NCBI RefSeq assembly: GCF_964019385.1
Contig: NC_088646.1
Coordinates: 12,755,091-12,819,090, forward strand
DNA length: 64,000 bases
Reading direction: 5' to 3'
Source of the DNA: Sycon ciliatum
Taxonomy: Eukaryota; Porifera; Calcarea; Leucosolenida; Sycettidae
The stretch's first letter is position 1. Each line of letters opens with the position of its first letter. Position numbers and translations under genes: made by a program. Shown here in pieces: positions 36,901 through 57,065 of the stretch. The notes under the pieces are model-generated. The model ran no database searches and was not told the origin of the DNA. It worked only from the letters and a program-made list of their open reading frames with translations.

Positions 36901-39900
36901 ACTGAAGTAAACCATTCCTTGCCTGGCTTGCACCTGACACATAGTATTGCTAGCTCGAGAGTTGGAGGAATACATGTACGTTGCCCTAGCAAGTATCCCA
37001 TGCCAGTGTGTATGCATTGTGAAATTTTCTTCTACTTTCTACGTAGTCTCTACGTGGGCGTCAAGATGTGGGAGTTCTCCGTGAGCTGGAACAGTGGCGT
37101 TCCAATGTTGTGGATGTTCAAGGAGTGATGGATGAGTTCTTGATGCTGCGTAACCGTTCCAACTTACTCCGCGATGAGGTAAGATGCTCTGGCAATGAAA
37201 TAAATGTGCCTGCTGGTTATTGGTGTCCTGTAACGTCCTCCATTATTCGGTGCGTAATATATGATAATGCATCATTATTGTCGTCATATTACAGCTGTAG
37301 AGTGCCCACCCTGCGACGGTATTGACGCCAATGTGCACTGTTATCATGACCTTCCACGCCAATGACAGCTATACAAATGCACAACGGTTGAGATTGACAT
37401 GACCATTGTGTCTGAATGTTCATCAGTATCGTATTCAACATTGCCTATTTTAACCGTTTTGAAATTCATTTTCCACTCTTCTGTCCTCTGGTTGTCTTAG
37501 GTGGATCTCCTCCAAGGCCGCATCGATGTAAGTCAAGTCACACTGTGTGCTCCACCACGTTGTAGTCAGTGCATGCGTCTGCAGTCTAATACCTTGAGCG
37601 GTCTGCAATGATGATGAAGGACTATGCAGATATAACTCCAGCTTTAGTGGGCTACTTTTGCCCAAGGCAGCACTATAAGATGTATTCATATTGTGCAAAA
37701 ATATACTTGGGCTTGGATTTTTCCATGTTTCCGACCAAGTCCGCTTAGTGCCAGTAAGTAATACACTCTTTGCTCTGCATTTCATTCCATTTTCTCTATT
37801 GTAGGATGGTGAAAAGGAACGTCAATGTCTACTGCTGCAGAATGACGAGGTAGGGCTGCTGATGTCCACATAAGCAATCCACCGCCGGCTGGGGCGTTTT
37901 TTGTCGAGAGAAATTCTCTTTTCAGCTTTATATGTCTACATTCACACATGTTTACGGAGAGTGACAAGACAACATCATTGGAATCAAGCTTGACTGTTCA
38001 AACATGGCATATAATCACCTGCAGTGTTTTCTCATGCGCTGTGTGTATGCCAATCCCAGCCCGATACTGTTTTGTAAACCCTGCACCGAGGTTCCTGTCC
38101 ATGGCACTCATATTTTTGAGCTTGTATATGGCCGCAATAATTGACACATGCTGACATGTGGAATCCACCTTGTGCTCTGTTTTAGCTGGTAACAACTGGT
38201 GAGAAGTATCACGAACGAGCGAGGATGCTGAGGGAGCGTGTGGAAGTACTCTCGGTGAGCAATAGTGAAATCGGTGTTGTGATGTGCCTTTCAAGTCACA
38301 GCCCCATCTCCTGCTATTTTTCATTTAAAACCAGATGGACGCCGAGAATAACATGAGTAACTGGAGCATACAATATCCTATTTCTTACTTGGTTTATTGC
38401 TGTGTGTCCTTTTTTAGCCTGATTTGGCTCTGTCGAGTTCTAACTTGTTTTCATTGGTCAGCAAGAGTGTGAGAGACTACCAAGAGCCTACAGTATTGGG
38501 GATAGTTTGGTGATGACATAACGTTGATACACTGTGACACCTAGTATTCATTTTAGTTGACCTCTTTAGGTACTATCCAGCCTGCCGTCTCAATTCTTAT
38601 TGGAACTGTGTGCGTGTGCTGCAATTTGCAGAAAGTCTATGAAAAAGATGTAGGCAAGCCAGTGGAGATTGAAGGCGATGACGAGATACTGAAGCCAATG
38701 GAGCCACCGCCAGCAATGGGTGACTATGCCAAAGCACCTCCGCCGCCACCAGCATCGGGTGGTGCACCGCCTCCACCTCCACCACCGCTACCAGGTACAA
38801 GCTGTACTCCTCTTTGTTATTCCTGACGTTGATGACCTGTCATACAAAAGCCATGAGTTATACATCTTCTGGCTATTAGAAAGTATTTTCCTTAGCCTCC
38901 AGAGAGAAATAAAGCAAGGAGTAACCCATCATTATTGCTTTCATTTCAACTGAGTGCAGGTATACAACGTTGTAGTGTTGAATTGCCACGGACTACTGAA
39001 GTGTGTACACACACACATGCACACAGTCTACAGCATTTGCCATGTCTTGCTGTTATTGGTGTGACTACAAATTGTGCAGGACTTCCAGGTGGACCGCCAG
39101 CACCCCCGCCCATGCCCGGTATGCCGGGTATACCAGGTGCACCTCCACCACCTCCAATGCCGGGAATGGCTGGTGGTAAGCAGAGAGCTCTTATCAAGAG
39201 CAATGTGCCGTTGCCAATGCTGAACTGGGTGGTCTTGCGAGAGGTGGATAACACCATCTTCAAGGTTGGTACTATCTATGGATGTGGATGCCATGAAGTT
39301 GTTTGAAATAGCAGCTTGTCATCTGTATAATTTGCCTGGCGAATGTTTAAGATGGTGGTTTGTCGTTTGTATGGTATGCCACTCATACACTACCCAATTT
39401 CCTTTTGCACGTACAGAGTATCGATGACGAAGCCATACTAGCAACTTTCGACTTCCATGAGTTTGAGAGCCTTTTCCAGGTGAAGAGAAAAGAAGAAAGC
39501 GAGAAGGCCTTGGCCAAGAGAGAAGCTGGTAAGTTAGCTTGCCTACACTGATGTGCCAATAGTGTATGGATCTGCTTTTCAACTGCACAAGCTCCGTACC
39601 TAAAGAGCTGACTTTACTTTCCATGCATCATTAAACTTATGTATACTAATGTCTCCATTGCTGTCTATTGTGTGGTGCTTATTCACAGCTAAGAAGAAGC
39701 TTGCCGAGCAAGTTACATTGATTGAAACGAACAGAGCTCGCAACCTTGGTATGTAGCGGTCACTTTGTACTGTAGATCTCTGGAGCCACTACACATTAGC
39801 TAAGAGGATAGGGACTTGTTGGGGTGTGGAGTGATTAGACCGTGATAACTCTCTGTTATCAATCCAGTGAAGGCAACATCAGGTCAATATCTGCAATGCT

Positions 39901-42869
39901 GCATTCCCTGCAACACGCACATGCTTTGAAGTACACACCTCTGACACGCATTCAATATCAAGATGAAATCCTTCCTGTCGGTTTACGCTCTAACTTAGCA
40001 TCACCCTGATACCAGACATATGTTTGATGTTGTGTAATCAGATTGCTTGCAATGCAGCAACTAATAACATCTAGTGATGGAAAACAGGAATATACCTGAA
40101 GGGAATGGATAATAATTCCGTTGTCTTATAATCACATCTTGGTGGTTGTCTCTGTTTTCTTTTCTTCCGTGTACCTGTAGTTATTGCAAAGCGTCGCATT
40201 GGCCATCCATCTAACAAAATCCGACAGTACATTCAAAACACTGACTTGGATGGCTTGCATGCAGACCATGCGGAGCTATTATTGAAGTTTGTACCAACCA
40301 AAGACGAGGTGAGAGTGTACGATGAATTGCAAACACATGTATGAAAGGGGTGATGAAGGTGGGGGGGGGGGGTGATGAAGGTTGGGGGGGGGGGGGCAAG
40401 ATTTGTATCAAACTATTCTGTACAAACCAAGGTGCCTGGCAAGGTGTCTGGTCGACCGTTTCCAGAAGTATCACAGCATTGTGTCTGAGCAATATTGGTT
40501 TTACCGTGTTTCCAACTTTCCGAGTCAGTCGTGTAGAGGCCCTGAGAACTGCTCAATTTGAAACAAAAGTTGTGCTCTGCCATCAATTTCTTATGGCTGA
40601 CTGTCACATTCCTAGTAGTGTTCAAATAGCCAACAAATAACTTTCAAGCCCTAGACTTCCTCTTGTGCTCTCTGTCTCTTGTTTGTCTTAACAGCTTCAG
40701 AAGCTCAATGCAAATGCAGAGAAGGTGCAGAACTTTGGTGAGGCTGAGGAGTTCCTGCATGTGGTAAGTAGCCGGCAACACACAATCCCCATTACTTTTG
40801 CCTTGTTTAATATCTCCCTGCCTTCATTCTTAATAATTATCATGCATGGCATATGCACATGTTGTCTGATTACTGCGGCAGATGTCCAAGGTGGAGCGTT
40901 ACGAATCCCGGCTGCATGTCATGACGTTTGCTGGTTACTTCGATGAGCTAGTGGCCACGGTAGCGCCTGTAAGTCACCCACTGCATGCTTTCCTGATCTT
41001 GGTCCGAGGTCATGTGACACTATGTATAGTTTCTCTTGTAAGATGCTTAATTTAGCTTACCGGCACTCAGTAGAATAATGGGAGAGCTCAATTTTTCATT
41101 CAGTTACGGGTCTATAACAACTTGAGTGTTACTCACAGAATTAGTGTACTTCAAATAACACTCTCGCGGAATTCAACATGTGTCTGTGTGCTTCTTGAAG
41201 TGACATTCCCTCCTACCAACTGTGCTCTGTGCATTTCAGCAAATCAACGCAGTGCTAAAGGCGTCCCTTTCCATCATGAATAGTCGAAAACTGAGGAAGT
41301 TGTTTGAGGTAAGTCTATGAAAGTCTGGGGGAATATTTCTGACATACCACATTACCACATTTGTAGTGACATTTGTAGTGACATCGGTGATAATCGTAAA
41401 AAAGATTGGTTTCTCGTTGTGAGATACCACACTTGCCTCAGCATTTTAACAGATGTAGAACATTGAATGCAAGTTGTTTTACGGTTAGTCGTCGGGGAAG
41501 AGAGAACCTGCATGCAAGCCAGGCACAAGAAATTATTAATACAGAAAATTAATGGTGATTGCACTCCACATCACAGCATGTATGGCTCTCAGAAGATAGT
41601 ATTGCGAACTCATACTCTATTTCCCGACATTTTGTATTCTGTGTGCCCTCAAAGATCATTCTTGCTTTTGGCAATTACATGAATAGTGGACGCCGTGGGC
41701 CAGTGTATGGATTCAAGCTGGAGTCTCTGGCAAGGGTGAGCATGAAATGCAGGCCGTGTGATACGGAGCTGGGGAATTGCCTCTGTCTTTCTTGTATTGC
41801 TACAACAGCCAAACTTCCTGTTAGATTTTCCTGTTGGGTACTAATAAGGTGCCCCATAACAAAGTTTAGAAATATCCCGGATTTCCTTCTGACAGTGGAG
41901 AGCTGAAATATTGCTACTTCCTTTTCTACCGTTCGACACGAAAGTTTATGCCTTGGCGTCTTAGATCTCGGCAAATTATGACTTCATCATAATGTACCAA
42001 ATTGAGCGAAAAAAAACTTGAACAGCTGTGACTTAACTTCGTAACGTCATCAACCTGATCAACCTGGGGCTATCACCTTTGAAATCGGGGCATGCTTTGG
42101 TCATGAGTTCTCATTTGGCTGAACATTCCATCTAACTTGATCTCTGGTTTGTTGTATTCACATGTTCACTAGCTGCTGGACACGCGTTCGACAGATCGCA
42201 AGCAGAACCTGCTGCATTTCTTGGTCTCAACAGTGGAGAAGAACTTTCCTGACATCACTGACTTCTATGAGGAATTGAATCTAGCTGGAGCTACCGGAGG
42301 TGAGACAGTGGCCACACATCCAGACACACAGTGAGACACGTACACATGACTCTGAACCTTTGAAAAGCCCATTGCTAGAGGTAATGATAAGTACTTGTAT
42401 TAGATGAGCCAATGGTTCCTGTCCCGAAACGAGTCATTCTGATGATGGAAGTGGCAGTCGCAGGTCCAGATTGGAAGGCAAACTAGAGCATTGTTGTTAC
42501 TGTACTTAAAAAAAGTTATGTAGCTGCTCACATCCTGATGCATGTACTGCCACTTACTGGTTGTGCATAAGCAGTTGTTGTCGGATGCCCAACTTGACGC
42601 ATACATTATACTGCTGTAGATGAGAGTGCACTCAGTAGCTTATTGTGTGGTAATGCTCCCTGTCAACCAATACTACTATACCCGGTTTCTGCTGTATTTG
42701 TGTACACAGTGTCCATGCAGACACTTGCACAGGATGTACAGGGTCTGCGCAAAGGAATCGACATCACACTCTATGAGCGAGAGAAGCAGTCCAACAACTT
42801 TATCATCTTCATATCCTCTCCACACATGTGTTGATGAACTGGGATTTTTACAGCCACCGTGTATTGCAT

Positions 42870-42963
<94 letters not shown>

Positions 42964-44920
42964 TAGGGAGGTTTAGTCCCACGTAATCCGTGGGTACTTT
43001 ACGTGTGTGTACCACGTGATACTCAGTGACCCACGTACAGACGTTTTCTGATTCACGACATACCGTGTATGGAGGCTCACCCACGTTCCGCCAGAACGTG
43101 GGTGAAAATCAGAATGGAGCGCATTTTGCGAGCTGTGAGGGTGCTCAGCTGAAGAAATTTCCGAAGCACGAAATCAAAATATTCGATGAGCTTATAGGCC
43201 CGGGTAGCTTCGTCTTTGACCAGGTTTGGGCCTTTCGCTTCAGGCGTTTGTTTGTTCCGTGTGACTAAACACAACATCGCAACGTGGATGCCCTTCATCC
43301 ACTTTACGTGGATCACCCACGTATGCGTTTCCGTTACGTGGGAACTAAACCTCCCTAATGATACATACACGAAAAGGGCACAGAATGGATGTGCTGGGTA
43401 ACTGATTGACGGTGAGTATCCGCTCTGCATTCCTCCGCTACAACATTTTCAGTACAGCACATATGTCATTCATATGATGTAGATGGCAATTAACATTACT
43501 TTGGTACCGGAATCATGTGTAACGTGTGTGATGATGGAGATGTTGGGGTAGGTTCATGTCAACTTGTACTGTACTAATGCCTACACGTCTACTGCATCTT
43601 GTGACTGGGTTCAAGGTGTATATGTGCATCTCACAAGCATAGTGACCATCCAGAGTGGTTTGTCCTTGACTACATTTTTGAATACTCCTTCTATAACCGC
43701 GCATTTCGCAAGGTGACAGCTATCTCCGACAACTACAAGAAGATGGATGAAGCCTTCAAGGATGTGTGCATGCTGTTCGGGGAGAGCCCAAAGAACACCG
43801 ACCCATCAGAGTTCTTCGGGCTCTTTGTCAACTTTGTTCGCATGTGGAAGGTAGGTAGAATACCCATAGCAGAAGTACTTCATCTTCAGATCCTAACTAA
43901 AGTAATTAGGCGTAGATGAAATAACAGAAAAACATAGTTTTGTACACATGCATGATGTGTGTGTGCACGTATGCTTAGGTGCATTTCTTGGTGCATAGTG
44001 TTTTGTATGATGCATCACTACAAGCTAATAACATCATGCACATGTTGATCCGATGTCTAATGCCACTAACATCTATTCATAAATTACTAACTTACACTGC
44101 AGGGGGACCCGTAAGACCAATGCCGTGGTCTTCTTACCAGGCACCTAGAACTATGTGTGCATGTATTGTGATCGCTTGGTCACATACTGTGCGCGGAATT
44201 GATACACCTCATTGTATGTTGGAAACTTTAGTACAGTACTGTCGGGCGCCGACAACTGTAGTGCCGAAGAACAAACGGGCTAGAAAGTCACGAAGCACAG
44301 GCATATACTGATATATATACGCAGTGCCTCGACTGCGCATAGACAGCAACACATGAAAACAAGACCGAGCTAGGCTTTGAGGCGGACCGGCCCCAGTTCT
44401 TCGGCACCCGACAGTGCTGTTCTTACTCACTGTGAAATGTGTTGTGTAGGTATGACCTAGCAATGCTGCAGACGTGTTGTATTTACTTTGATGCAGTCGG
44501 AATGCCTACTGTAATGTTAGTAATGTGTACTCCCCATTCCTGACCGTGAATTGGTAATTTGTCTCTTTCGTAGGATGAACTGAGTGGAGCATGCCAGTGT
44601 AGCGTTGTCACCTCTTGCGATATGTTCCGCCGCCGCATGTCGCGCAAGAGAAAGTCTCGTCGTCGTCGATAACAACACTTTGAGCACAATGAGAAGTGTG
44701 TTTGGCTACTGCAGCACCTGATCAGGGATGTATGCATGCATGTATGCCACGGTATCAGGGGTCGTGCTGACAGGGCTGTGGCTGAGCGAAGTATGAAGTT
44801 GCGTTGCCCATATCAACTCTATTCGCTAGTCAGCGTGCGTGTGTTTTGCAAGTACATTATGATGCCCATGTGAGGGGGAGGGAAAAAGAGAGAGAGAGTG
44901 AGTGAGAGATAGAGAGAGAG

Positions 44921-45002
<82 letters not shown>

Positions 45003-48000
45003 CCAGTGAGTCCTGAATTTGCCTGATAAAAGACCTTATTTTGATGAATTTCTTACCACAAATTATTCCAAAATACCTTTCTGAGGAATGCGTATTAAAT
45101 AGGCTTCTAATCGTAAGCTAACTTTTAATTCCAATGATTTCTATGCTCTACACTGATACCACTTCATAACGAGGATGTCATTCGGATTGCATGTAACAAT
45201 AACAATGATAGCTTGAGACAACAGAGCATGGCTAGGCTTGCATTGTTAAATTGTTGTAATACGTATTGACACCATTTGGACATAACATTATGCGGCAGAT
45301 TCTGCCCTTTAAAATGTGCTAATAGTTAATATGTGGTCTAAATTGTGCTGTGAAATAGATATGTTTATACTAGCAAGAGATTGGATGCCACTGTATGGAA
45401 ACTACAGTGCATTGGATGCACATGATTGTATTGGCGGTAATCTTCATGCACAGAGACTCCATCTTTATCATAATGCTCTTTTATGCTGAAAACCTAATTT
45501 GTTGATATGACTATAAACATGACATTATTTGTTGACTACATAAATACTTCTATTCAGAGGCCATTGCGATGTGGTTGGACGTAACTAAAGTCACATTCAT
45601 AATATGAGTGGATGGGGAAGAGACGTGTGTGCGTGTGTTTTTTCATGGGTATTAAAGTATTTCTCTCCCTCCTAATACTTCAACGTGTCTGGGTATGCAG
45701 GCGTAGTTCGAAATCGGTGTGTTTCTCGTATGAGGGAACGCTAGCGTTCCAGTGCACACAGAAATGAAACCCATCGCTGATGAGATTCATGTGTTAGAAA
45801 ATGCACCCCTTCCAAAAGCCTTGCTATTGATCCCAATCGTTCTACCCAAAGATGGATACAGCGTATAACTACCCTCTACAAGATAATCTTATCGTGTGCT
45901 GCATTGCGCAGAATGCCTGAATCAGGCTGAGCAGTAAACAATCCAGTGACCTTGCTGCCGCCGAAAGCCCCAAAGGTAGTATAGTGCCCGTGAATGGGTA
46001 CTAGTATGGGGAGAGATACTTGTACTGAACGTTAGTACAGTCACCTACATGTATGTACTTATTTACCTGGGTTCTAGGATGACTCTAGTGTGTACCGCTT
46101 ATAGTAAGGGTGTAACCATGGTAACCTTCGAAGTTCAGTATGGCCACACATCACAAGTACTGTCGACTCCACGTGCTGTAAACGCAGACAATTTAGGTGG
46201 TGTTTTATTTTCAGTAACTTCGGTGCCGTTTTTTCATGGGTATTAAAGTATTTCTCTCCCTCCTAATACTTCAACGTGTCTGGGTATGCAGGCGTAGTTC
46301 GAAATCGGTGTGTTTCTCGTATGAGGGAACGCTAGCGTTCCAGTGCACACAGAAATGAAACCCATCGCTGATGAGATTCATGTGTTAGAAAATGCACCCC
46401 TTCCAAAAGCCTTGCTATTGATCCCAATCGTTCTACCCAAAGATGGATACAGCGTATAACTACCCTCTACAAGATAATCTTATCGTGTGCTGCATTGCGC
46501 AGAATGCCTGAATCAGGCTGAGCAGTAAACAATCCAGTGACCTTGCTGCCGCCGAAAGCCCCAAAGGTAGTATAGTGCCCGTGAATGGGTACTAGTATGG
46601 GGAGAGATACTTGTACTGAACGTTAGTACAGTCACCTACATGTATGTACTTATTTACCTGGGTTCTAGGATGACTCTAGTGTGTACCGCTTATAGTAAGG
46701 GTGTAACCATGGTAACCTTCGAAGTTCAGTATGGCCACACATCACAAGTACTGTCGACTCCACGTGCTGTAAACGCAGACATTTTAGGTGGTGTTTTATT
46801 TTCAGTAACTTCGGTGCCGACAATTTTTACCTAAAATAAAACGCACCGAATATGTTGGTACTAGCACTAGTACACTTACCTGGAAAACAGGTTTACCGAA
46901 AATTTCCCTCCACCGAACCGCTCATTTTGGAGAATACCGTTACCGTAGAATCCCGCGGATAAGCCCATGGGCTTATCTGTTTCACAAGGACATTTCGGTG
47001 GGCTTATACGAGAACATGGGCTTATACGCGGGCATGGGCTTATACGGCGACACAAAGTTGTGCTATTGAAAAGTATCAAGGAAGTGAGAAAAACATTGCT
47101 GAAAACCACTGTGCAAACAAAAACAACCGATGATTGTGCTGAAATGTACGAAAAAAACTATAATGTGCATGACTACGTACATGTACATGGTATGGCCAAG
47201 AGTCCATAATTTATGGACTCTTGGTATAACCTAGGCCCATGGGCTTGTACGATGAAGCCTTGTGATGTTCGAACAAACCCTGGGCTTATGTGCGGGCATG
47301 GGCTCATCCGCGGGATTCTACGGTAATATTACTTCGGAAAGTACACCACCAAAAATGTCTGCTCTTACAGTATAGCAAACTCTCTTATAGCGAATTTGAT
47401 GATAATATAGCGAGCCATTGTCCATGTCCCTGTTTGAACTCATACAAAATTGACCCTTTGTAGCGAATAGGTTTTGTTTAGAACCATATCTTGCATAGGG
47501 CCGCATGTAAACCAAGTAGGCTTTCCCCAAACCGGTCGCCAAAAAATTCGCTGAAAACCACATCTATCGAATAATTGCTAAGCTTTCGCTGATTTTGAAG
47601 GATTCCTTTGAAAATCGCCGAAAATCTACCAAATGTTGTTGCAAAGTGCATTTACGAACGAATGATGTTGGTGCAAGCATGACCGCTCGAGCTTTCTACT
47701 TCAGTACTTGTACCGGTAGTACTAGGGCGTTGAGATCGTGTGACTCGTGTCCTTTGACCTCCTCTCAAACAAACATTAGCCATTAGGAAGATCGTTACTA
47801 GTAAAAAAACAAATCGGCTGGCCGAAAAATTCGTTGAAAACGAGACTTACCAAAAAATCGCTAAGCTTTTCGCCGATTTTGGAGGGTTCCTTTGAGAATC
47901 GCCGAAATCTACCAAATCTTCCAATCTCTCACCAATTTTGAAGCCAACATGCCAACAATTATTTTTGCCGATTTTCCAATTTGTTCCAATTTTGCAGCCG

Positions 48001-50908
48001 ATTTTTGAACAATCAGCAGATTTTGCAGCCGAATCTGATGTATTTTTGAGCCGAGCGAAAAGCGGAATAGGCGAAAACGGGCTTATTTAGGGAAAGCCTA
48101 AAACCAAGTGTAGTCATACCAAGTGCAGTCATACAGGCAAGGGCCGCATGTCTTTCATGACGTGTTGCTTGTAAGGTGCGAGCGCACTTCTGTTATAAAG
48201 AACTTCGGCCACAAAAAAACCTACTTTTCCTGCACAATGGGGTTCGCTATATCAGGAGTCGATGGCACCAATGAAATACATTGCTGGAGGGGAGAGCAAG
48301 AACATGATGATAGTCATGTGACTGAACGTACAGTGTTTCAATATGGATGTCCGGTAGTTTTCAATGCAGTTCTGCTAACATGGAATATACATGTATGCGG
48401 CACTAAGTTACCCGCTCCGTCAGTGCATGCTGTTCCACTGACCCTGAGACGAGCATAGCATACCGTATTATCTCCATTACAAGCGCAGTCTCTCGTAGAA
48501 GCCCAGTCTCTATTATAAGGGCACTCCAAGAGGGCTTCAAAGATATACAAGCGCAGTCTCCAGTATTAGCGCAGGGCTTATAATGGAGAACTGTCTGGAT
48601 CATGTCCATGCATGTTTGACGTCCACAGTATCACATACACACATGTTATGACGCAGGTCTGTGATCCCCGAGATAAAAATGTACAGACTCAGTGTGCCAG
48701 GAAGTGCAAAACTGCATTCACGGTACTTGGTGGGAAATGTTGTGCTACTGGTACTAAGTATAAGAAAAAGTATTTGTACCAGACGGTTGAAAAATTAGAA
48801 GCCCAGTCTCTAGTAGAAGCCCCATTCTCCAATATAAGCCCAGGGTCAAGACTGGTTGAAAAAATATAAGCCCAGGGTCAGGAGTGGTTGAAAAAATATA
48901 AGCCCAGGGCTTATAATGGAGATAATACGGTGCCGGTAGCTATAGAGTATTGTAATGCTGTTCCACTGATCCTGAGACGAGCATAGCATACCGGTAGCTA
49001 CAGACTATAAAGTGCCATGATCCCAGTGCAAACACAAGTTGTATGTCCATCTATGGTTCAGATCTTAGATTTGTGATCAGATTGCAGTGATCATGTGAAG
49101 CAATGCACTTGACATATTCAATGCACGCTCTTGTCTGCCTTTTGCCATTTCAGCTTGGCGTGGATGAGAACACTGCTCGGGAAAAGAAGGCAGTCGAGGA
49201 GGAACGGAAGCTTCAGCTGCAGCAAGAGCAACTGCAGAAGAAGTATGAAAAGCAGCGACAACTGGAGCAGGAACAAGAGCAGAAGGCACAAGCAGAGTCT
49301 GTCCTGGCGTCCCAGCCACTACTTGAGCCAGGGCCGCCGGATTTGCCATCGCCGAAGCTAAGCAAAGCTGAGCAGAAGAAGGCAGAAAAGCAGGCGAAGA
49401 AGGACAAAAAGAAGGAAGAGAAGAAGCAGAAAGAACTGGAGAAGAAGATGAAAAAGATGGGCAAGTCGGGTCTGAGTGGTCAGCTGCTGCTTACAGAGTC
49501 TGGCCAGCTCCAGGTGCAAGACCAACCGAATGATGTCATGCTGAATGGAAAGCCACCAGCTCTACATGAGCCACCAGTGGAAGACAGTCCAGCGACTGTT
49601 GCCGAGTCCGATGGCAGCACTGCTGAGGAGAGGATCAGTGTCAAGTCACGACAGCCACAGCAACCCACAGTCATCAGCCAAGCAGTGGTTGGAATAGAGA
49701 CACTGGCAGAAGTGGATCAGCAAGGAGCTCACCTGAGCACAGCCAATGCTACGTATCAGAACCAGGATGCACTCCAGCCCAGAGCGGGACCGTCGCTAAA
49801 TATTGATGAAGGTGGTGAGCTGTACATGGCTCCACCCGATAGCTGCACAAGTTTTGAAGATGCAGACATCTACATGATGCCCGCTGAGACTAGTCAACAG
49901 CACTCTGCCCAGGGCAGCATTGCTAGTATGGACTGCGATGACTTTGTGATGCCCAAGGTCGAGCCGCCACCGCCCCTGGATGATGCAATGTCTCAAACAT
50001 CGACACGTGTTGGCTATGATGCTCCGCTATCGCCTGGTTCATTACAATCTGGTCAGATAGTGGACGAGTACTACGAAACGGCGCATGATTTGACGTCACA
50101 CACGCCTGGTGAAAGTCAGTACCAGAATGAAGTGCAACAAGCTCAAGCTGACGGTTTGATATATGAGATGGGCGAGGACTCTGAGGAGGAAGACGTCGTG
50201 ATCAAGCCAATACCGAACATGGCGGCAATAGCAGCGGCTCCCGGTGCCCGTGTTCAAGCGCATCCAAAAAAACCACTGATCACACAAGGCTCTGACAGCA
50301 CTCTCTACGAAGACATGCCACAGAGCTTGCCCGCACAAAACCACGCCACCACCCTTGCAGTACAGGAAGACGCTGGAGATATGTACGACTTCATACCTGG
50401 TGACAGCGCTAGCGGTACGACCAGCGGCGCCAGCTCTACTCTATCTTCTGCAATGTCCACGATGCAGAAAAACCAGCCAAGTATAGCACCACCACTCGCA
50501 CCGCCAGCCTTGGTTGATCAATCGCACTACGACTTCATACCGGTTAACGCGCCACCCCTGCCAGGATCAGCGTCACCACGGCTACCACCCAGACCAAGCA
50601 CTGCTACACCATACCTGCCTCCCCGTGATCCTGCACCGGCTGAGCGGCCAATGGAGGATGATGGAGAACTTTACGAGGCGTGCGGCGGTATGACAGCTGT
50701 TGATTATGACCGCATGAAGAGAGGCACATTGGATCCAAGAGCAGCCCAGACTGATCAGCCATCTGCCAGAAGCAGTGGTAACCCGTACGATCGAATGAAC
50801 TCTGACGGAGTGCTGCAGCCAGCTCAAGACCCGCCACAAGAAGAGTACATGGATATGAGCGCAATTGGTCAAGGGCAGAGTGACATATACGAAGGTTTTG
50901 ATGGCTAG
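16655..50908 (+). CDS. FMNL: formin-like protein (FMNL class), full gene model
   Basis: FMNL formins nucleate and elongate unbranched actin under Rho-family GTPase control. The exons read 16655-16769, 18492-18544, 19083-19166, 33938-34107, 34309-34444, 35024-35074, 35430-35528, 35934-36080, 36502-36618, 37047-37178, 37501-37527, 37805-37849, 38186-38254, 38632-38794, 39080-39264, 39417-39528, 39689-39748, 40181-40308, 40695-40763, 40882-40968, 41240-41308, 41655-41735, 42173-42299, 42710-~42827 and ~43616-43850, then a terminal exon at 44574 or 49154. Order: GTPase-binding/armadillo N-terminus (residues ~45-325; [29 protein letters not shown]), coiled coil (~330-415), proline-rich FH1 (~438-500), FH2 (~508-893; [28 protein letters not shown]). 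Spacing matches FMNL without gaps across exons 2-4. It lacks the Met-Gly myristoylation start of vertebrate FMNLs. Predicted length is about 925 or 1477 residues. The exon 24/25 junction is unresolved. Confidence 0.9.
17535..17955 (-). pseudogene. isolated minus-strand open frame in formin intron 1
   Basis: A 140-codon open frame starting [19 protein letters not shown] and continuing with a basic, helix-like stretch ([15 protein letters not shown]). The first 45 residues have coding-like composition; the rest is low complexity ([16 protein letters not shown]). No partner exons are visible. It may be a fragment of a mobile-element protein inserted in the first intron of the formin. Identity unknown. 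Confidence 0.22.
18092..18180. repeat. dispersed ~85-bp repeat, copy 1
   Basis: It contains agggtggtggctttcctgcg followed by gatgcggaaaaccc and a degenerate gaatctcgcatgacgtg-like end. The same succession occurs at 53963-54046. The two copies share roughly 80% of positions by eye. It could be a piece of a SINE or of a larger element; no internal RNA polymerase III boxes were convincing. Confidence 0.6.
20497..20590. repeat. 19-bp minisatellite, five copies
   Basis: Head-to-tail copies of tccccgtgttgtggtgata, one with tattcc instead of tatcccc. There are no spacers between copies, so this is not a CRISPR-like array. Confidence 0.9.
20829..21056. repeat. GA-rich microsatellite, about 230 bp
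   Basis: A nearly pure purine tract on the plus strand, with an uninterrupted (GA)n core at about 20884-20974 flanked by gagaagagaagag and gtgagtgagtgag variants. Confidence 0.95.
22019..22290. repeat. (GT)n then (CA)n, facing microsatellites
   Basis: A (GT)n tract at 22019-22107 is followed 100 bp later by an interrupted (CA)n tract at 22207-22290 (cacacacacgcacac variants). The two can pair as an inverted repeat with a loop of about 100 bp. Confidence 0.9.
22875..23187. repeat. G-rich minisatellite, ~24-bp units, about 13 copies
   Basis: Units of the form gggacagggggaggaggagg with variable G-run lengths (5 to 11 G). For about 310 bp the plus strand has almost no pyrimidine except the single C in each unit. 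Every unit carries several runs of three or more G. Glycine/proline-rich open frames on both strands come from the repeat. Confidence 0.95.
24134..26946 (+). CDS. secreted RNase T2-like protein with degenerate active site
   Basis: Two exons, 24134-24263 (phase 1) and 24704-26946, predict about 790 residues. Exon 1 is a signal peptide: MKRHK.. with hydrophobic core [14 protein letters not shown] and likely cleavage after VEA. Exon 2 begins with the RNase T2 fold: [12 protein letters not shown] (residues ~91-102), WTVRGLW (~122-128), [22 protein letters not shown] (~200-212), then conserved C-terminal elements ([11 protein letters not shown]). Active enzymes read HGLWP and EHEWEKHGTC; here the catalytic His are Arg, Gln and Tyr and the Lys is Thr, leaving only the Glu. 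Known T2 enzymes cut single-stranded RNA in secretory or lysosomal compartments; this one is probably inactive. From about residue 310 the chain is low-complexity, rich in Gly, Pro, Gln and His with two poly-Gly runs, ending in a basic segment. The gene lies inside formin intron 3, same strand. Confidence 0.85.
25935..26193 (+). repeat. GGT/GGC trinucleotide tracts coding poly-glycine
   Basis: Two in-frame runs of Gly codons (about 25937-25983 and 26140-26193) inside the RNase T2-like exon. Such tracts commonly vary in length between alleles. Confidence 0.85.
26947..32062. other. middle of formin intron 3; one candidate exon at 27639-27772
   Basis: After the RNase T2-like stop there is 5.1 kb without a firm gene. 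The best candidate exon is 27639-27772: acceptor ccattgcag, donor gtaagt, phase 1 in and 0 out, encoding [20 protein letters not shown].. and then Ser/Gly/Arg-rich sequence, with a possible membrane segment. Its phase-1 entry matches the phase-1 signal-peptide exon at 24134, so it could be an alternative 3' exon of that gene. A second weak candidate, 28691-28816 ([20 protein letters not shown]), fits phase 0. Three copies of atctgggct lie near 28991-29018. Nothing else stands out. Confidence 0.3.
32063..32515 (+). CDS. possible alternative first exon of the formin
   Basis: An open exon of 151 codons begins ATG ([18 protein letters not shown]) and ends in NHWETLNPQ at a gttagt donor in phase 0. 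The next downstream formin exon (33938) starts in phase 0, so joining gives an uninterrupted frame. Composition is hydrophilic and Ser-rich with a [10 protein letters not shown] stretch; no known domain is recognised. The canonical formin reads exon 3 directly into exon 4 with FMNL-like spacing, so this exon is not needed in that isoform. It would replace the first 84 residues, including part of the GTPase-binding region. It could instead be an exon of an independent nested gene. Confidence 0.5.
33552..33700. repeat. GT and GGT microsatellites before formin exon 4
   Basis: Short (GT)n at 33546-33562, (GGT)n at 33633-33670 and (GT)n at 33669-33699, with another (GT)n at 33887-33912 just upstream of the exon 4 acceptor. 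Confidence 0.9.
34677..34981. mobile_element. non-autonomous hAT-like element with 8-bp target duplication
   Basis: A 305-bp insertion in the formin intron between 34444 and 35024. It is flanked by an exact 8-bp direct repeat, atctaaag, at 34669-34676 and 34982-34989. The ends are imperfectly inverted: left CAGTGGTGTGCACGGGTA, right end reverse-complemented TAGGGCTGAGCCGGGTAG, the CAGxG(G)-type start seen in hAT transposons. The inside is rich in repeated gggtacccg/ctacccg palindromes. No coding capacity. The 8-bp duplication is diagnostic of the hAT superfamily. Confidence 0.9.
36131..36330. mobile_element. possible short element in formin intron
   Basis: This starts cagtaaaacctgtcaatgcg and carries repeated gaccacctg/ggaccacctg motifs, ending near gggtttcgatttacag. 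The start resembles the cagtaaaacctgtc.. ends of short elements found in many invertebrates (recall). The two ends are only weakly inverted, so the boundary is uncertain. A related start (cagtatagcaaactctctta) occurs at 47369. Confidence 0.4.
42871..42960. repeat. (CA)n microsatellite in formin intron 24
   Basis: About 45 CA units with one CC interruption at 42923. It lies 45 bp downstream of the end of exon 24 and ends at the inserted element at 42966. Confidence 0.95.
42966..43355. mobile_element. TA-flanked MITE, gggaggtttag family
   Basis: A 390-bp element flanked by TA on both sides (42964-42965, 43356-43357). The left end gggaggtttagtcccacgta is answered by an inverted right end tacgtgggaactaaacctcc, differing by an inserted base. 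The motif acgtg recurs internally. TA duplications and short inverted ends are characteristic of Tc1/mariner-superfamily derivatives. A related element sits at 53534-53898. Confidence 0.88.
44574..44672 (+). CDS. FMNL: formin alternative terminal exon with polybasic tail
   Basis: The acceptor ctctttcgtag joins in phase 0 to the last FH2 exon (ending FVRMWK at 43850). It encodes 32 residues, [12 protein letters not shown] followed by [15 protein letters not shown] and a TAA stop. The arrangement Gly-x-x-..-Phe-Arg-Arg followed by a basic cluster recalls the end of a diaphanous autoregulatory domain (where a LLxxL helix precedes the basic patch), but the Leu helix is missing. It may bind the N-terminus, membrane phosphoinositides or act as a nuclear signal; these are inferences. 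Confidence 0.7.
   Translation, partial: DELSGACQCSVVTSCDMFRRRMSRKRKSRRRR
44881..45000. repeat. GA microsatellite
   Basis: Purine-rich gagagagtgagtgag leader and an uninterrupted (GA)n from about 44927 to 44998, just downstream of the formin alternative stop. Confidence 0.95.
45636..46817. repeat. 591-bp tandem duplication
   Basis: Two adjacent head-to-tail copies (about 45636-46226 and 46227-46817) that are almost identical; one visible difference is gacaatttagg versus gacattttagg. Each copy holds the same 64-codon frame starting [11 protein letters not shown], which has no other support. Either a recent local duplication or an assembly duplication. Confidence 0.95.
46943..47323. mobile_element. 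TA-flanked MITE, ccgtagaatcccgcgg family
   Basis: 381 bp between TA dinucleotides. The left end ccgtagaatcccgcggataa is the inverse of the right end, which reads catccgcgggattctacgg with one change. Inside, the palindrome-rich unit gggcttatacg / cccatgggctta is repeated several times. No coding capacity. Confidence 0.88.
47324..48461. other. AT-rich, no supported gene; decayed repeats
   Basis: Contains a start resembling other short elements (cagtatagcaaactctctta) at 47369 and a stretch near 47570-48070 where cgccgatttt and gaaaatcgccgaaa words recur in both orientations. No plausible exon seen. Confidence 0.5.
48462..48931. mobile_element. inverted-repeat element with internal gcccagtctc repeats
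   Basis: The left end ccgtattatctccatta at about 48464 is inverted at the right end taatggagataatacgg at about 48913-48929. Inside, agcccagtctctagtagaag and aatataagcccagggtca type words recur four to five times. The ends begin CCGTA and run into ATAAGCCC like those of the 46943 element, so the two families look related. Target duplication not certain (TA on the left, TG on the right). Confidence 0.75.
49154..50908 (+). CDS. 584-residue tyrosine-rich exon, probable formin C-terminal tail
   Basis: The exon starts at a strong acceptor (tgccatttcag, ending 49153), so it needs an upstream partner; the nearest phase-0 donor in real coding sequence is the last FH2 exon of the formin (43850). The first ~110 residues ([20 protein letters not shown].., then a Lys/Glu run) form a charged coiled coil, as formins have just after FH2. 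The remainder is disordered and carries at least twelve acidic-context tyrosines: YMAP, YMMP, YETA, YEMG, YEDM, YDFI twice, YEAC, YDRM twice, YMDM, YEGF, plus proline motifs LPPRPS and LPPRDP. YxxM (four copies) is the PI3-kinase p85 SH2 consensus; LPPRP suits SH3 domains. It ends [11 protein letters not shown] stop. Alternatively it is the last exon of a separate FYB/ADAP-like adaptor. Confidence 0.75.
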   Translation, partial: LGVDENTAREKKAVEEERKLQLQQEQLQKKYEKQRQLEQEQEQKAQAESVLASQPLLEPGPPDLPSPKLSKAEQKKAEKQAKKDKKKEEKKQKELEKKMKKMGKSGLSGQLLLTESGQLQVQDQPNDVMLNGKPPALHEPPVEDSPATVAESDGSTAEERISVKSRQPQQPTVISQAVVGIETLAEVDQQGAHLSTANATYQNQDALQPRAGPSLNIDEGGELYMAPPDSCTSFEDADIYMMPAETSQQHSAQGSIASMDCDDFVMPKVEPPPPLDDAMSQTSTRVGYDAPLSPGSLQSGQIVDEYYETAHDLTSHTPGESQYQNEVQQAQADGLIYEMGEDSEEEDVVIKPIPNMAAIAAAPGARVQAHPKKPLITQGSDSTLYEDMPQSLPAQNHATTLAVQEDAGDMYDFIPGDSASGTTSGASSTLSSAMSTMQKNQPSIAPPLAPPALVDQSHYDFIPVNAPPLPGSASPRLPPRPSTATPYLPPRDPAPAERPMEDDGELYEACGGMTAVDYDRMKRGTLDPRAAQTDQPSARSSGNPYDRMNSDGVLQPAQDPPQEEYMDMSAIGQGQSDIYEGFDG

Positions 50909-51384
50909 TACATCTAAACCTACTAGTATCTGAAAGTTAGGCTTGGTTGCTGCATGAAGTTATGTGACAACATTCTACCTTTGCGCAGCTGACAAGAATT
51001 CAGCACACCACCTACGATATTATGTGAGTGCATGGAATAAGAAATCTATTGTGAGGACTATTGTGATTGTCCTTTCAAAACAATGCTGAGTTTGAGCATT
51101 TTCTTGGCCCGAATGCCACCCCCCCCCCCCCTCAGTTATTAAAATGTTTGGGGGCTTTTCTCCTTCGGATTTTTCGGATTAATTCAATTTAAAAATCGTT
51201 AAGCTCACACATTTCCCTGATTGAAGACCTCACAAATCGTGTGCATGTTCATACGTGTGGAGCGCTATCTCATCTACCGGTATGCCTTGTCTACAGTTTC
51301 TGGATGCCAGGGACACGGAAATTCTTGGGTAACTTATCACTCTGGATGTACAACGTAGCAGAACGTAAACACGCATGCCCTACG

Positions 51385-51427
<43 letters not shown>

Positions 51428-51855
51428 TACTTGAACAGGAAAAGAACAGATAAATTACGTTACGAAAATCGGTGAAAATAACGCAAGGAAACAGGAGGGA
51501 CAGAGAGAGAGGAAAGCTAAAATACAGAGGCATCAAAAGCCATATGAGTCTAATGTTTGTTTCATGGATGCCGCCAGCAGCAGTAGAAAGCAATAGCCCG
51601 GAATAGCACTCACTGTACAGTGTACTCAAGTCATTATGGGAATTTCATGAACTATCTCTATTTCGTGAAAGTTGTGAGAAATTTTGAATATCACAGCTTG
51701 AATTAATGAACAGACTAGCAACCAATTATGGGTTTTACCTGACCTGTCACACTAAGGTCTGGGCTGACTCTATTCACAATACACCCACAGTGACAACTGT
51801 TATCGTACGTTGAACATGCAGAAACTGCATAGGTTGTTATGCAAGGGCACGGCGG

Positions 51856-52899
51856 TCAGAGGAACATGTCCTGAAAGTAGTCGTCAAACTCTTCCTCCTG
51901 TGTTTTCTCCATTTCAACGTGAACCGGCTTTTTCCAGACTTGACTCGGGTCATTACTAGCCTGTGCAGCACGTGCTACATCACTGGACTGATCAGCAGCA
52001 GAACTCACAGTACCAGCATTGGCACCGGATGCAGATAGAGACGCAAACAATGCATCCGTTCTATCCGCTGCATCATTCGCGCCGTCGCCGGAAGCTGATG
52101 TGTCTTGATCGGAATGCGACGAATACTGGTCAGAATCCTCGCCAGAACCCTCTCGTCTCCTCTTCTTCTTCTCTTGTCGTTCTTTTTCCTGCTTTCGCTT
52201 CAAAGACTTTTCGAACTCTTTCTCCTTCATGGCTCGTTTATGTTCATGGTGGTAGTTCAGTTTTGCAGCACATGCTTTGCATAGCCTGAGTTTGACTAGG
52301 GCATTCTTCTTCATACCATGCTCCATGTAGCCAAAGTTCACTTCCCAACTGGTGAGCATGTCAGTGTTTGGACAACGTCTGTCTCCGCATGCAAACTGCC
52401 CCTTGCCATCCAGCACCTCCCGTTCCACGCGCCACCTCATGGCCACTTTGTTTTCCTTGTAGCGAGACAAATCAGCTATGCAGTACTCCTTGAACAGTTT
52501 ATCGTAGTACTTCTTTGCAAGTCGCTTCTCCCAGTTGTTCTGGGCAGCGTCGTCATCTTCGTCGTTCCACAAGAATTGATGATTCTCAGCCAACACGTCG
52601 TAATCATTTCTGTCTCTGGATGCGTCTCGTGTGAAATGCTCCTTTCCCTCATAATGTAGGCAGTAGTAGTTGACAAATTGCTTGTGCCTGGAATAGGCAT
52701 CCATTGCCATGAAGCCATTGTACCGGCCTATTCTCCTGGCAGCAGCGTCTACCTCGTCGCGGAACACTTTCTTATTGGGAAGGCTAGCTTTCTTGGATTC
52801 TTTCTTTGCCAATGGGTCCGAACGCCAAGTCTTCTTCGGCTCAGGCTCCTCCAGATCCGAGTCATAGCCATCGTTGCTAAAGTCTATTTTACTCGCCAT
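51856..52899 (-). CDS. FRA10AC1: FRA10AC1 homologue (spliceosome-associated)
   Basis: A single-exon gene of 347 residues from ATG at 52899-52897 (MASKIDFSNDGYDSDLEE). The frame is open slightly upstream without another ATG. The core is strongly like vertebrate FRA10AC1: AMDAYSRHKQFVNYYCLHY, FLWNDEDD, WEKRLAKKYYDKLFKEYC, IADLSRYKENK, GKGQFACGDRRC, SWEVNFGYMEHG, KNALVKLRLCKAC. The two cysteine pairs could hold a metal. A basic Lys/Arg stretch (~residues 215-245) is a likely nuclear signal, followed by a Ser/Asp-rich region and the conserved acidic end EEEFDDYFQDMFL. FRA10AC1 is a nuclear protein associated with late spliceosomal complexes. The gene converges on the formin tail exon, with 947 bp between their stop codons. 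Lack of introns is notable beside the intron-rich formin. Confidence 0.97.
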   Translation of the reverse strand: MASKIDFSNDGYDSDLEEPEPKKTWRSDPLAKKESKKASLPNKKVFRDEVDAAARRIGRYNGFMAMDAYSRHKQFVNYYCLHYEGKEHFTRDASRDRNDYDVLAENHQFLWNDEDDDAAQNNWEKRLAKKYYDKLFKEYCIADLSRYKENKVAMRWRVEREVLDGKGQFACGDRRCPNTDMLTSWEVNFGYMEHGMKKNALVKLRLCKACAAKLNYHHEHKRAMKEKEFEKSLKRKQEKERQEKKKRRREGSGEDSDQYSSHSDQDTSASGDGANDAADRTDALFASLSASGANAGTVSSAADQSSDVARAAQASNDPSQVWKKPVHVEMEKTQEEEFDDYFQDMFL

Positions 52900-53533
52900 T
52901 GTCCTGAGGATGCTCTCATTTCTGAGAGACTGCTTACGAGCCAGCAACCATTCATTCAGGCCGAGGCTTTCATTGCTTCAAAGGTAAGCAATAATAATTA
53001 TTATTGTATAAATTTTTGAAATTTCCAAGCATTTCATTTTCAATTTTTTTGAGAGACTATCATTTTCCTTCGTAAAAATGCGTTTGTCCAAAAGAAGGGC
53101 GTGTTCGATTGATGGCATCCGGATGCAGATCAACCGGATCCACTGGATTCCCAACCTTTCGATTGTTGAATCTGGATTCGGATCTGACAGAATTGGATCC
53201 GACCAACCCACCTCGGGTGCAGGCCGCAGATCCAACGGATCCTGGTTATGGTTTGCCACTCAACCTTTTTGGCACAGAAAAAAGCCTAAAAAACTCCATA
53301 TTTCGGGCAGGACCGAACCCACGGGAAGGCTGTCATCACACTACGGTACAACGTGTTGCATCTACGTCCACGTAAGCCTTGTAGGGGATTCACACGACAG
53401 GCAAATCCACGTGCACTGGAAAGTTGCTATGGTATTTTACCTGTGAGCGAGAAAAGTGGCTGAAAGTGGCTGAAAAGTGCAAGCGAGCTGGGGGCCCACT
53501 TTCATGATAATCGTGGCGTGCACGAGTACATTA
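52900..53533. other. upstream region of FRA10AC1, no gene
   Basis: It should contain the minus-strand promoter and 5' untranslated region of FRA10AC1. There is no TATA box at a credible distance. Repeated ggatccg/atccgga words occur at 53115-53245. Open frames at 53078-53446 (plus) are not supported. Confidence 0.5.
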
Positions 53534-53898
53534 GAGAGGTTAAGTTACACGTTTTTTGCCCTTTTTCAAAACGCGGTGCAAATCTCACGTTACGTGTAAT
53601 TTTTAGAGGTTAAGTAACACGTGCGACGTGACGTGAAATTTTGCCTGGCAGGATTCGGGTTTAGTTCGCACAAAATTAATATCAAATCTTCCAACAAACT
53701 TGATAAATCTCGATAAAATTCCGGAAACTCACACAAATTCGGTCGGGATAACCAAGCGAAACTTCCAAAAACCCACGTCATGAACTTACGTGCGGGACAG
53801 TCAACTCACGTAAAACACGTCAAATTTTACGTGAGTTTTTTCACTTTTTTACGTAAAAGTTCACGGACGTAAGACTTTTACGTGAAACTTAACCTCTC
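53534..53898. mobile_element. TA-flanked MITE, gagaggttaagt family
   Basis: 365 bp between TA dinucleotides (53532-53533, 53899-53900). The left end gagaggttaagttacacg is the inverse of the right end cgtgaaacttaacctctc with one mismatch. An internal copy of the end (agaggttaagtaacacgtg) lies at 53606. The ends are close to those of the 42966 element (gggaggtttagt), so both belong to one family. Confidence 0.88.
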
Positions 53899-53962
53899 TA
53901 TTTACACCAAAAAGCGCGAAACAAGACTTGATTTTTTACGCGGCTCTTTAGAACATTAGCTG

Positions 53963-54046
53963 CAACCTGCGCCTTGATCCTTGAAGGGTGGTGGCGTTCC
54001 TACGGATGCGGAAAGCCCGGCTTCCAGCCGAGTCTCACGTGAACCA
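53963..54046. repeat. dispersed ~85-bp repeat, copy 2
   Basis: It contains agggtggtggcgttcctacg and gatgcggaaagcccgg then gagtctcacgtgaacc, matching 18092-18180 block by block in the same orientation. Confidence 0.6.
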
Positions 54047-57000
54047 TGAATTTTTTTAATTTATATTTTTTAGAACATGATACTTATTGCATGCGTGTGT
54101 TTGAAAATTTGAAATACCCATGGCTACTGGTCGGTGAAGCATTCAAAAATGCGAACGTGCCTGTCGTCGAGTGCAGCTGTGTGAATCCACACTCCCTGTA
54201 AAACGTGCAAGTGCCTGTCGTGTGAATTGCCTTTAACAGTAAGGAGTTTTTGGTTGGTTGTCATGATGATCCATGTGCAGGGTGAAAACGGGGAGCAGAG
54301 GAAATGGGGAACGTAGACGTGTCAGGGAGAGGGGGGGGGGGGGGGAGAGGAATACAACTACATGTACGTGTAAAACAGGCAAACGTGCCGTGCACATCTC
54401 TCCCAGTCTTTTTCCAAGCGACCTTGTGTGCGCGTTTGAATTATTTTCAATTTTCTCCAAAAACGTGACCATGTGTACGGGGCAAGAACTATCCTGTGTG
54501 AAGACTTGACCACCCGTACCCGTTGTGGATTTTCCCCGTAGACGTACATGTAGATGTAAACGGGAGTCAATGAACGAAATGAACGGAGTGTGTTGATGGC
54601 CCAGGCAAGGTGAGCTTCACATTTAGTATGTCATGTGCATGTACGTGTATGTGTACATAATTTATACTAGATTCACTGTTCAACCGACGCTCACTGCAAC
54701 GATAATCTTTATCATAGCGGCTAACTTTGGCACAATGAGGACCAACTCTGGCAGTTTCCCTTGGTAGCCAGCATGCATACAACAGTAAAGCAATCATGTA
54801 CACTTCCCAGAGTCAAGCCCGGCCCTCGAAGCATGTTGTGCATTCTGCCGTTATCCAAGGAGAGTGTTGTGGAGGGAAGCCAAGGTACAAGTCTGCATTG
54901 TGCCGCATTGAGTGCTGTATTGCACCAGGTTTAGCTATAGAACAAAGCTAGGGCATTGCCTCTTATCCTCCAGTGTCGGCTTCTGTGAGCAAAACTCGTC
55001 TTGGCTCTATGACATCATTGTGTAGAGCGTGTTATCTCGACTTTGGGAACAACAGTAGCTAGAGAGTACTAGGGTTCACCGGGTGTTTGCGGCCGTCGTG
55101 AGTTCCCTTCGGGAACAGACATGATTATTTCCTTATTTTTACTAGCGTCTAAGTTTGTTTTGCCCTGGGAATTTGATTTTCTTGCCTTGCCTCTGTCACT
55201 CACAAAGGGACACACAACCAAAGCGAGGGCCTGGCCCTAGGCCCTGAGGGCCCATACTGAGGAATTTCAAAATGATTTTGTTTTCACTTTGTGTACATTT
55301 GGTTGCTGTGACTGTTGGTGTTGTTGTTTTACATTTGGTTGCTGTGACTGTTGGTGTTGTTGTTTTATGTACTACTCAGGCTACTGTCACCTTAGCTCTC
55401 AGCATGCTCAGTTGGAATGCCAAGTTGATGTCATGTTGTCCTCTGGTCTGGACCCCCTGGCGATCTTATTGCTATGGCTTTACGTGGTTCTGAAAAGCAG
55501 TCAATCATCGGCTGGACATGAGGTGCTGAAGTCACAGTTCCGTTGGCAGAGCTGCAGCACTTTCACAGTAGGTGGAGTTGCTGAGTGTGACCCATACATA
55601 GGGACCCCATGCCGTGTACACTTTCCACAGGGGCTGTGTGAAGGTGGCAATACTGGAGCAAGCATCCACAGTGACACGGCATAGGTAGTAAAAATATTAT
55701 ACTGATAACTGGTGCTATTAAAATTTGCATTGGAAAGACAGTTTGATTCATAGAGTTGTAAAACTTACTTGACTAGGACTGTGCGGAGCAACTGATCTCA
55801 TCCGACCCATCAAGCTGCTGCCTGCCAGCATGTCTTATACAAATGTAGAGGTTATGAGATTGTGTCATCATTTGAGGTGCTTTGCAAAACTACGGTGGCG
55901 CCGCAAGCCCTGTCTTGCCACTCAATACACACAAGTACAAGGCATAATGCGTCGATTGTGTCATTCGGCGTAGCCTCTATTCGAAGATAATGCAGATGGG
56001 AGAGCACAGCAATGCTGGCACATCATGCTGTCGTTGTGGCTGATAACACTTGGATTGTGGACTGTCAGAAACGTGCCACCAACACCGCCTATCAGAAAAA
56101 GAAAGATGGGAGGCCCTGAGCCTGCTCCACTGATCCGACCGTTGATATGCACGCTTTGGACTGGCTGAACTGTGCATGTGTGCACATGCTGTATGATCAC
56201 AACGTGCTGTGCATGAGTTCCTTGTGTCAGAATTCGTCAACGCTATGTCCAGACTGATTAGGCTCAGCATGTGGTCCGTTGCCAGTAGTCACAGTATCGT
56301 GTAGGTGATATGGACTAATATGGATCAGTCTTCCCTTTTTTTTATTCCTAAGACGAACTCAGTATCATGCATATCCAATACAGTATATAGAGCATCCCCT
56401 GAACTTCTGAAGACATGATGTCACAGCTTATTACAAAAAAACAACTCTTGCCTGGAGTAGTCTGGACTGTGCTGCATGTACTTGCAGTACATTAAATTAA
56501 ATTAATGCAAAACCTACACCAGCAGGATCTAGGACCAGGTGAAAGGAAATAGAAGATGGAATACAATGTTTAAAGTCTTGTTGGTTCATATTTCTGAGTG
56601 CACGTGTCTGCCTTTGTTGTTCCCCCTGATAAACGAGGAAGGGAGATTATACTTCACTGAAAAGTAGAAGCAAGCCATGATGGGCATTTTGGAGTTATTG
56701 GATTTTTTCTTTTACTTTTACTTTTAACCTAGAGATACAGTAGCCGTAGTACAGTATGCTTGAATACGTGGGAAAGTGAAACAGTGGTGTGCATGTGCAT
56801 GTTTTGGCTACTAAAGTATGTTCAATACTTTCTGACATGGTTTAATACACAACAATGACTGGATCCATTCATGACCAATGTCTATGATAGGCCTTTCAAC
56901 TCATGTCTAGTTAAGATAGGCCTTTCAACTCATGTCTAGGATTGCCCGGCTGAACACATCCTGTAATAAGGCTGTATACTCACAGTATAGACTGTTATGT

Positions 57001-57065
57001 CTACAGTAAATGAACATTACGTTTGTAGTCAAGTAAGTAATTCGTTTTAGTGTTTTCTTTTGCAG
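54047..57065. other. no firm gene; small tandem repeats
   Basis: Holds a G-run at 54331-54346, a 36-bp direct duplication at 55298-55368 (tttggttgctgtgactgttg twice), and another short duplication at 56889-56938 (aggcctttcaactcatgtct twice). Open frames at 55289-55684 plus and 55977-56270 minus lack splice support. Nothing recognised. Confidence 0.5.

Follow-up and report, generated by a model that had tools for sequence, protein, structure and literature searches.

The window, meaning the whole stretch of 64,000 nucleotides that was analysed (C4:12755091-12819090, in a genome searched as 538 Mb on 313 contigs), holds a formin gene on the forward strand, which lies between an RNase T2-like open reading frame and, on the opposite strand, a FRA10AC1 gene. 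Gene content and genome size suggest that the DNA is that of an animal. The RNase T2-like domain (PF00445, E 1.5e-29) is found at 24517-26946, in an open frame of 809 codons with a long Gly/Pro/Gln-rich C-terminal extension. The FRA10AC1 homologue is a single open frame (51856-52977, minus strand; PF09725, E 2.8e-54) and lies tail to tail with the formin. Further along, at 62030-62380, there is a long trinucleotide repeat in which several frames are open on both strands. The exons of the formin were assembled from open frames and splice signals, six for the GTPase-binding/DID region and twelve for FH1-FH2. The model covers the DID block from 33983 to 36618 and the gene from the FH1 block at 38632 onward. 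The features are:

33983-34107, plus strand: formin exon, GTPase-binding/DID region (Drf_GBD)
34309-34444, plus strand: formin exon, GTPase-binding/DID region
35024-35074, plus strand: formin exon, DID
35430-35528, plus strand: formin exon, DID
35934-36080, plus strand: formin exon, DID/FH3
36502-36618, plus strand: formin exon, DID/FH3
38632-38794, plus strand: formin exon, proline-rich FH1
39080-39264, plus strand: end of FH1 and FH2 lasso (PMLNW ... IF; lasso criteria as given in PMC5047451)
39417-39528, plus strand: FH2 exon
39689-39748, plus strand: FH2 exon
40181-40308, plus strand: FH2 exon
40695-40763, plus strand: FH2 exon
40882-40968, plus strand: FH2 exon
41240-41308, plus strand: FH2 exon
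41655-41735, plus strand: FH2 exon (GNYMN)
42173-42299, plus strand: FH2 exon
42710-42810, plus strand: FH2 exon, followed by the AT-AC intron
42811-43685, plus strand: putative U12-type AT-AC intron (splice-site sequence and FMNL3 alignment of the joined protein)
43686-43850, plus strand: last FH2 exon, with the end of the FH2 profile at 43850
43851-49153, plus strand: long last intron in the favoured model, containing a tandem duplication
44574-44672, plus strand: candidate for an alternative last exon, of 32 codons plus a stop, with an Arg-rich end; weakly supported
49154-50908, plus strand: C-terminal tail exon, with a charged start that aligns to what follows FH2 in other formins, a Lys-rich stretch and a tyrosine-motif region

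Judged from its sequence, the gene is a Diaphanous-related formin on the FMNL/MWHF side. In a profile search with the joined exons, the FH2 part matches PF02181 with an E value of 8.1e-85, and against formins in the PDB it matches FMNL3 (4eah, 1.3e-81), DAAM1 (4.2e-52) and DIAPH1 (2.4e-32). The N-terminal part matches Drf_GBD (PF06371, 1.4e-19) and Drf_FH3 (PF06367, 4.6e-13), a match that covers GBD-FH3 without the start of the G-domain and without the dimerisation region. A sequence search of the PDB with the DID part gives FMNL2 (4yc7) at 2.3e-38, versus 3.6e-10 for DIAPH1. The Drf_FH1 match (0.0015) is below the family cut-off, but a proline-rich FH1 is nevertheless plain in the sequence. 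As described in PMC5047451, FMNL and MWHF formins share a lasso signature, with a proline four residues before the first tryptophan and a phenylalanine replacing the second tryptophan. Both features are found here, as PMLNW and NTIF, when the protein is aligned to FMNL3. The likeness to the FMNL formins (FMNL1/2/3 and FRL) therefore takes in the GTPase-binding/DID region, FH1, FH2 and both lasso residues, with FMNL3 and FMNL2 as the best PDB matches of FH2 and DID and with the post-FH2 region in register; what differs is the 584-residue tyrosine-motif tail, in which there is no convincing DAD/WH2. To the MWHF formins (multiple wing hairs-related) the likeness lies in the lasso signatures that MWHF, FMNL and the present gene have in common. 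There is no MWHF among the PDB matches, and the gene may be of either the FMNL or the MWHF type.

One intron within the FH2 domain has unusual ends. The exon before it stops at 42810 and is followed by 5' ATATCCTC, a branch-like TCCTTGAC is present at 43663-43670, and the 3' end of the intron is AC. By the U12 consensus, we take ATATCCTC, TCCTTGAC and the AC end to be putative AT-AC signals. The other 15 of the 16 introns within the two exon blocks are GT-AG, with 42811-43685 as the sole exception, and across it the joined protein aligns to FMNL3 with one gap that is one residue long. An earlier note on this DNA had let the last FH2 exon begin at 43616. That start is wrong, because the AT-AC intron ends at 43685 and the joined protein aligns to FMNL3; the exon begins at 43686, while the donor at 43850 and its phase 0 were correctly given. 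The Pfam FH2 match ends at residue 82 of the frame 43605-43916, which is base 43850, and at this point the profile is complete as well (372/372).

From this donor the transcript very probably continues at 49154, and among the continuations compared, the tail exon 49154-50908 is the best one for the formin. The exon is a frame of 584 codons that ends in TAG; as noted earlier, it has a 3' splice site at its start and fits the donor phase 0 to phase 0. At the local base composition, 584 codons free of stops have a chance of about 3e-14 per start. The donor at 43850 is among the best 0.26% of GTs. A simple metazoan matrix was used to score the acceptors from 43.85 to 51.0 kb, and here 49154 (5.8) is the best of the seven in the top 3%, with 44574 (5.6) as the second. 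The alignment to FMNL3 continues across 43850|49154 and is free of gaps at that point, and the E-N of the tail falls on the E-N of FMNL3, DAAM1 and DIAPH1. The charged start of the tail, which had been likened to what formins carry after FH2, does align to the post-FH2 regions of all three.

The strength of this likeness was measured by joining the end of FH2 to the continuation at each AG from 43861 to near the end of the window (1302 sites, 534 of them open for at least 20 codons) and scoring the joined sequences with phmmer against FMNL3, DAAM1 and DIAPH1. The site at 49154 gains 12.4, 17.4 and 14.0 bits, which places it at ranks 5, 1 and 1. Its summed gain of 43.8 bits is the highest of the 1302; the next sum, 36.0, comes from a site whose acceptor score is very poor. 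All of the other nine in the top ten (sums of at most 36.0) are later points in the tail exon or frames of GA repeats, with acceptor scores that are very poor. Thirteen acceptors score at least 5, and the best gain among them apart from 49154 is 4.3 bits. It is worth noting that this test was designed after the result of a cruder, ungapped BLOSUM ranking, in which 49154 is placed no higher than 16th to 30th among 1557-2658 open sites. Since it ranks so low without gaps, and since GA-repeat frames and later points within the tail exon reach 33-36 bits, an E/K-rich composition contributes part of the junction gain.

The tail exon could also be thought of as part of a separate adaptor gene that has a promoter of its own and one or more upstream exons in 44.7-49.1 kb, or that starts at an ATG at 49103 or 49121. 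Both of these ATGs are in frame, and the gap of 5.3 kb before the tail exon exceeds the other introns within the modelled blocks. However, the two ATGs sit directly upstream of a pyrimidine tract that belongs to a strong acceptor, and the start of the exon aligns to the formin post-FH2 region. In addition, the first 98 codons of the tail, which precede its first internal methionine (residue 99), have a codon signal of 0.77 bits per codon, a value reached by no single-frame 294-nt window scanned in 44.7-48.85 kb. By this measure the tail is coding right from its start, so that coding should come from upstream. A search for a separate first exon gave 12 mechanical ATG-to-donor exons in 43.9-49.1 kb, none of which looks coding; the best total is 1.5 bits, against best totals of 28.0, 7.3 and -1.6 in three control stretches. 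A promoter for the tail exon at 45-49 kb, together with splicing that is always 43850|44574, had been named beforehand as an observation that would count against the join, and by the coding score of these 12 candidates there is no convincing first exon there. An independent gene is thus very improbable, and the join to the formin is the reading that we carry forward. The long last intron that this implies also includes a tandem duplication (45637-46818) with a spacing of 591 bp and 300 nt identical between the copies, which is either a recent event or an assembly artefact.

In the earlier note the tail was called optional, and this part of the claim is weakly supported. The candidate for a shorter end is the exon at 44574-44672, and what is proposed is a pair of alternative last exons, one giving a short Arg-rich end and the other the 584-residue tail form; the long form would be compatible with the explanation that we prefer. 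The acceptor at 44574 is the second best in the region and the phase is kept, but the exon shows no formin likeness and its coding signal is weak. Its Arg-rich end recalls the basic end of a DAD, and a pattern search finds no loose DAD core in it. The gains against FMNL3, DAAM1 and DIAPH1 are 1.1, -0.1 and 0.7 bits (ranks 539, 813 and 354 of 1302), and the codon signal of 0.24 is matched by 5% of single-frame 99-nt intron windows. On the plus strand AATAAA is absent from 44672 to 46834, and there is none from 50908 to 61282 either; as it is missing after both, it is of no help in choosing between the two possible last exons. Alternative C-terminal ends are nevertheless spliced in FMNL2 and in fly Fhod (PMC5006604, PMC10797183). 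According to these accounts, the FMNL2 isoforms differ only after the DAD (PMC5006604), and tails A, B and E of fly Fhod have a length of about 30 to 130 residues, where formin tails in general range from about 0 to >200 residues (PMC10797183). The present gene is like these in having C-terminal coding sequence after FH2, which is isoform-specific in those formins, and differs in that its tail has 584 residues and that alternative use is only a possibility. A short form ending at 44574-44672 is possible, and a gene with two alternative ends is on balance unlikely.

The tail itself changes in character along its length. Its first 50 residues include 10 K+R and 12 D+E, and the next 50 include 16 K+R and 9 D+E. 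After the first 100 residues it is poor in Lys and Arg and rich in P, Q, S, A and G, and from this composition some 450-480 residues look disordered. There are 18 tyrosines. Twelve of them have at least two acidic residues at positions -4 to +3, where shuffles have on average 5.6 such tyrosines (p 0.002), in line with the dozen or so acidic tyrosine motifs seen earlier. Clustered SH2-ligand tyrosine motifs, which are a feature of docking proteins, are present: the four YxxM motifs that had been reported are at residues 385, 518, 545 and 565 (the last being YMDM), where shuffles have a mean of 0.64 (p 0.0016), and Y[DE] is found at 11 of the 18 tyrosines versus a shuffle mean of 2.9, with 0 of 5000 shuffles reaching this number. 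YxxP (4, p 0.11) and YxN (2, p 0.06) are not significant on their own, YxxL/I/V is not enriched over shuffles (p 0.76), and YDFI occurs twice. The SH3-type proline motifs of the earlier note do exist, two of class II and one of class I, but their enrichment is uneven, with p 0.08 for PxxPx[RK] over the whole tail, 0.03 over residues 131-584, and 0.40 for class I. Searches with the tail returned no Pfam family and no match in the PDB. In its own genome the tail is single-copy, with no other match at E <= 1 (36 candidates scored), and collections of viral and prokaryote contigs, where none was expected, gave nothing. No PH, PTB or SH3 domain was found by Pfam in the tail or in the modelled parts of the formin.

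A DAD was looked for with a loose and a strict pattern, both built from the DAD consensus. The tail has three loose cores, against a shuffle mean of 0.54, and when inspected by eye none of these has a basic cluster close behind it. The strict pattern finds nothing on the plus strand of 43.85-51.85 kb, and it also misses the clear DAD (GEFDDLVSALRSGDLYD) of a DAAM-like gene at C4:17.94M. From these pattern searches we lean to the absence of a DAD in the tail. Section 13 of PMC5047451 describes MWHF members as having no DAD/WH2 although their N-terminus is of the G-DID-DD type. The absence of a DAD alone would hence not be new, and here it would fit the MWHF formins.

The reading that we favour, with a probability of about 0.63, is that of one gene, an FMNL/MWHF-side formin in which 49154-50908 is the normal C-terminal exon and provides an adaptor-like phosphotyrosine docking tail. 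Of the earlier proposal that FH2 and a tyrosine-signalling tail are found in one chain, the join is upheld by homology and splice signals and the motif content by counts that are enriched in part, whereas its optional nature is not. In the proposed arrangement, FH2 would run through the splice into the charged stretch, followed by the Lys-rich segment and then by a probably disordered region of tyrosine motifs, where YxxM, YxxP, YxN and YDFI are clustered and two class II SH3 ligands are present. The tail may be phosphorylated by a Src-type or receptor-type tyrosine kinase, and SH2 proteins of the p85, Crk/Nck and Grb2 types would then dock on it; SH3 proteins may dock on the tail as well. The FH2 dimer would build actin while carrying two tail strips per dimer, and might sit at, or seed, a signalling cluster where actin grows. 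We infer that the join is transcribed and that the tail affects actin and autoinhibition, and we regard the proposed signalling role of the tail as a good prediction.

The main alternative with regard to function accepts the join and takes the tail as an ordinary disordered extension that tunes FH2 by charge, with the tyrosine motifs being incidental. According to PMC10797183, formin tails probably act on processivity in part through electrostatics, and the first 100 residues of the present tail are highly charged. Two neighbouring proteins also have a fair share of Y[DE], with 4 of 15 tyrosines in FRA10AC1 and 4 of 11 in FH1-FH2, and for this reason the incidental reading gains weight and the docking model loses some. 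On the other hand, Y[DE] and YxxM exceed shuffles of the same tail, and each of four other proteins that were checked has 0-1 YxxM compared to the 4 in the tail. Tuning by charge alone is therefore rather unlikely, and the docking tail is retained as the preferred explanation. Many formins are under the control of Rho-family GTPases (PMC5628938). A more far-reaching version of the preferred explanation, in which the phosphotyrosine and SH3 docking tail replaces the DAD and tyrosine-kinase/PI3K-type signalling, besides Rho GTPases, sets where and when actin is built, is put forward tentatively, as something that may well not be the case.

Possible readers of such a tail can be found in the genome. 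There are 86 exon-wise SH2 matches, some with internal stops. The p85 iSH2 model matches at 4 places, although it also matched one archaeal control, below the cut-off; at three of the 4 places (C1:67.58M, C4:2.69M and C4:31.67M), an SH2 match lies no more than 8 kb away on the same strand. FH2 matches number 25, at 13 loci by manual grouping with the present gene included. With the FH2 of the present formin as the query, a further, divergent FMNL-side relative is found at C2:35.87M. Part of this gene (C2:35863001-35893000) was assembled from tblastn rows, and it is possibly the MWHF of the organism; in a weak row (E 3.4) its FH2 is without the usual GNYMN. Two other formins, at C4:17.93M and C1:73.68M, look DAAM-like by eye, and yet another, at C1:45136664, carries an almost complete FH2 (profile 5-372) in a single frame, which is part of an open frame listed with 2932 codons.

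Docking proteins such as IRS, Gab, p130Cas and BCAP have several YxxM, YxxP or YxN motifs as well as SH3 ligands. The tail resembles them in its multi-motif region, with YxxM/YxxP/YxN and SH3 ligands, and differs from them in that it is fused to an FH2 actin-assembly module and has no PH, PTB or SH3 domain. To our knowledge, no formin with such a tyrosine-motif tail has been described, and among the titles and abstract openings of the literature searched there was none on a formin with an SH2/YxxM or tyrosine-linked tail. The formin is well supported, and its long adaptor-like tail is unusual. In the more far-reaching version, kinase substrate, scaffold and actin nucleator would be found in one dimeric chain. 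With an adaptor-like tail of 584 residues, a single molecule would combine the assembly of actin with tyrosine-kinase docking, and the gene would offer a clear case in which to examine how SH2 signalling is connected to the cytoskeleton.
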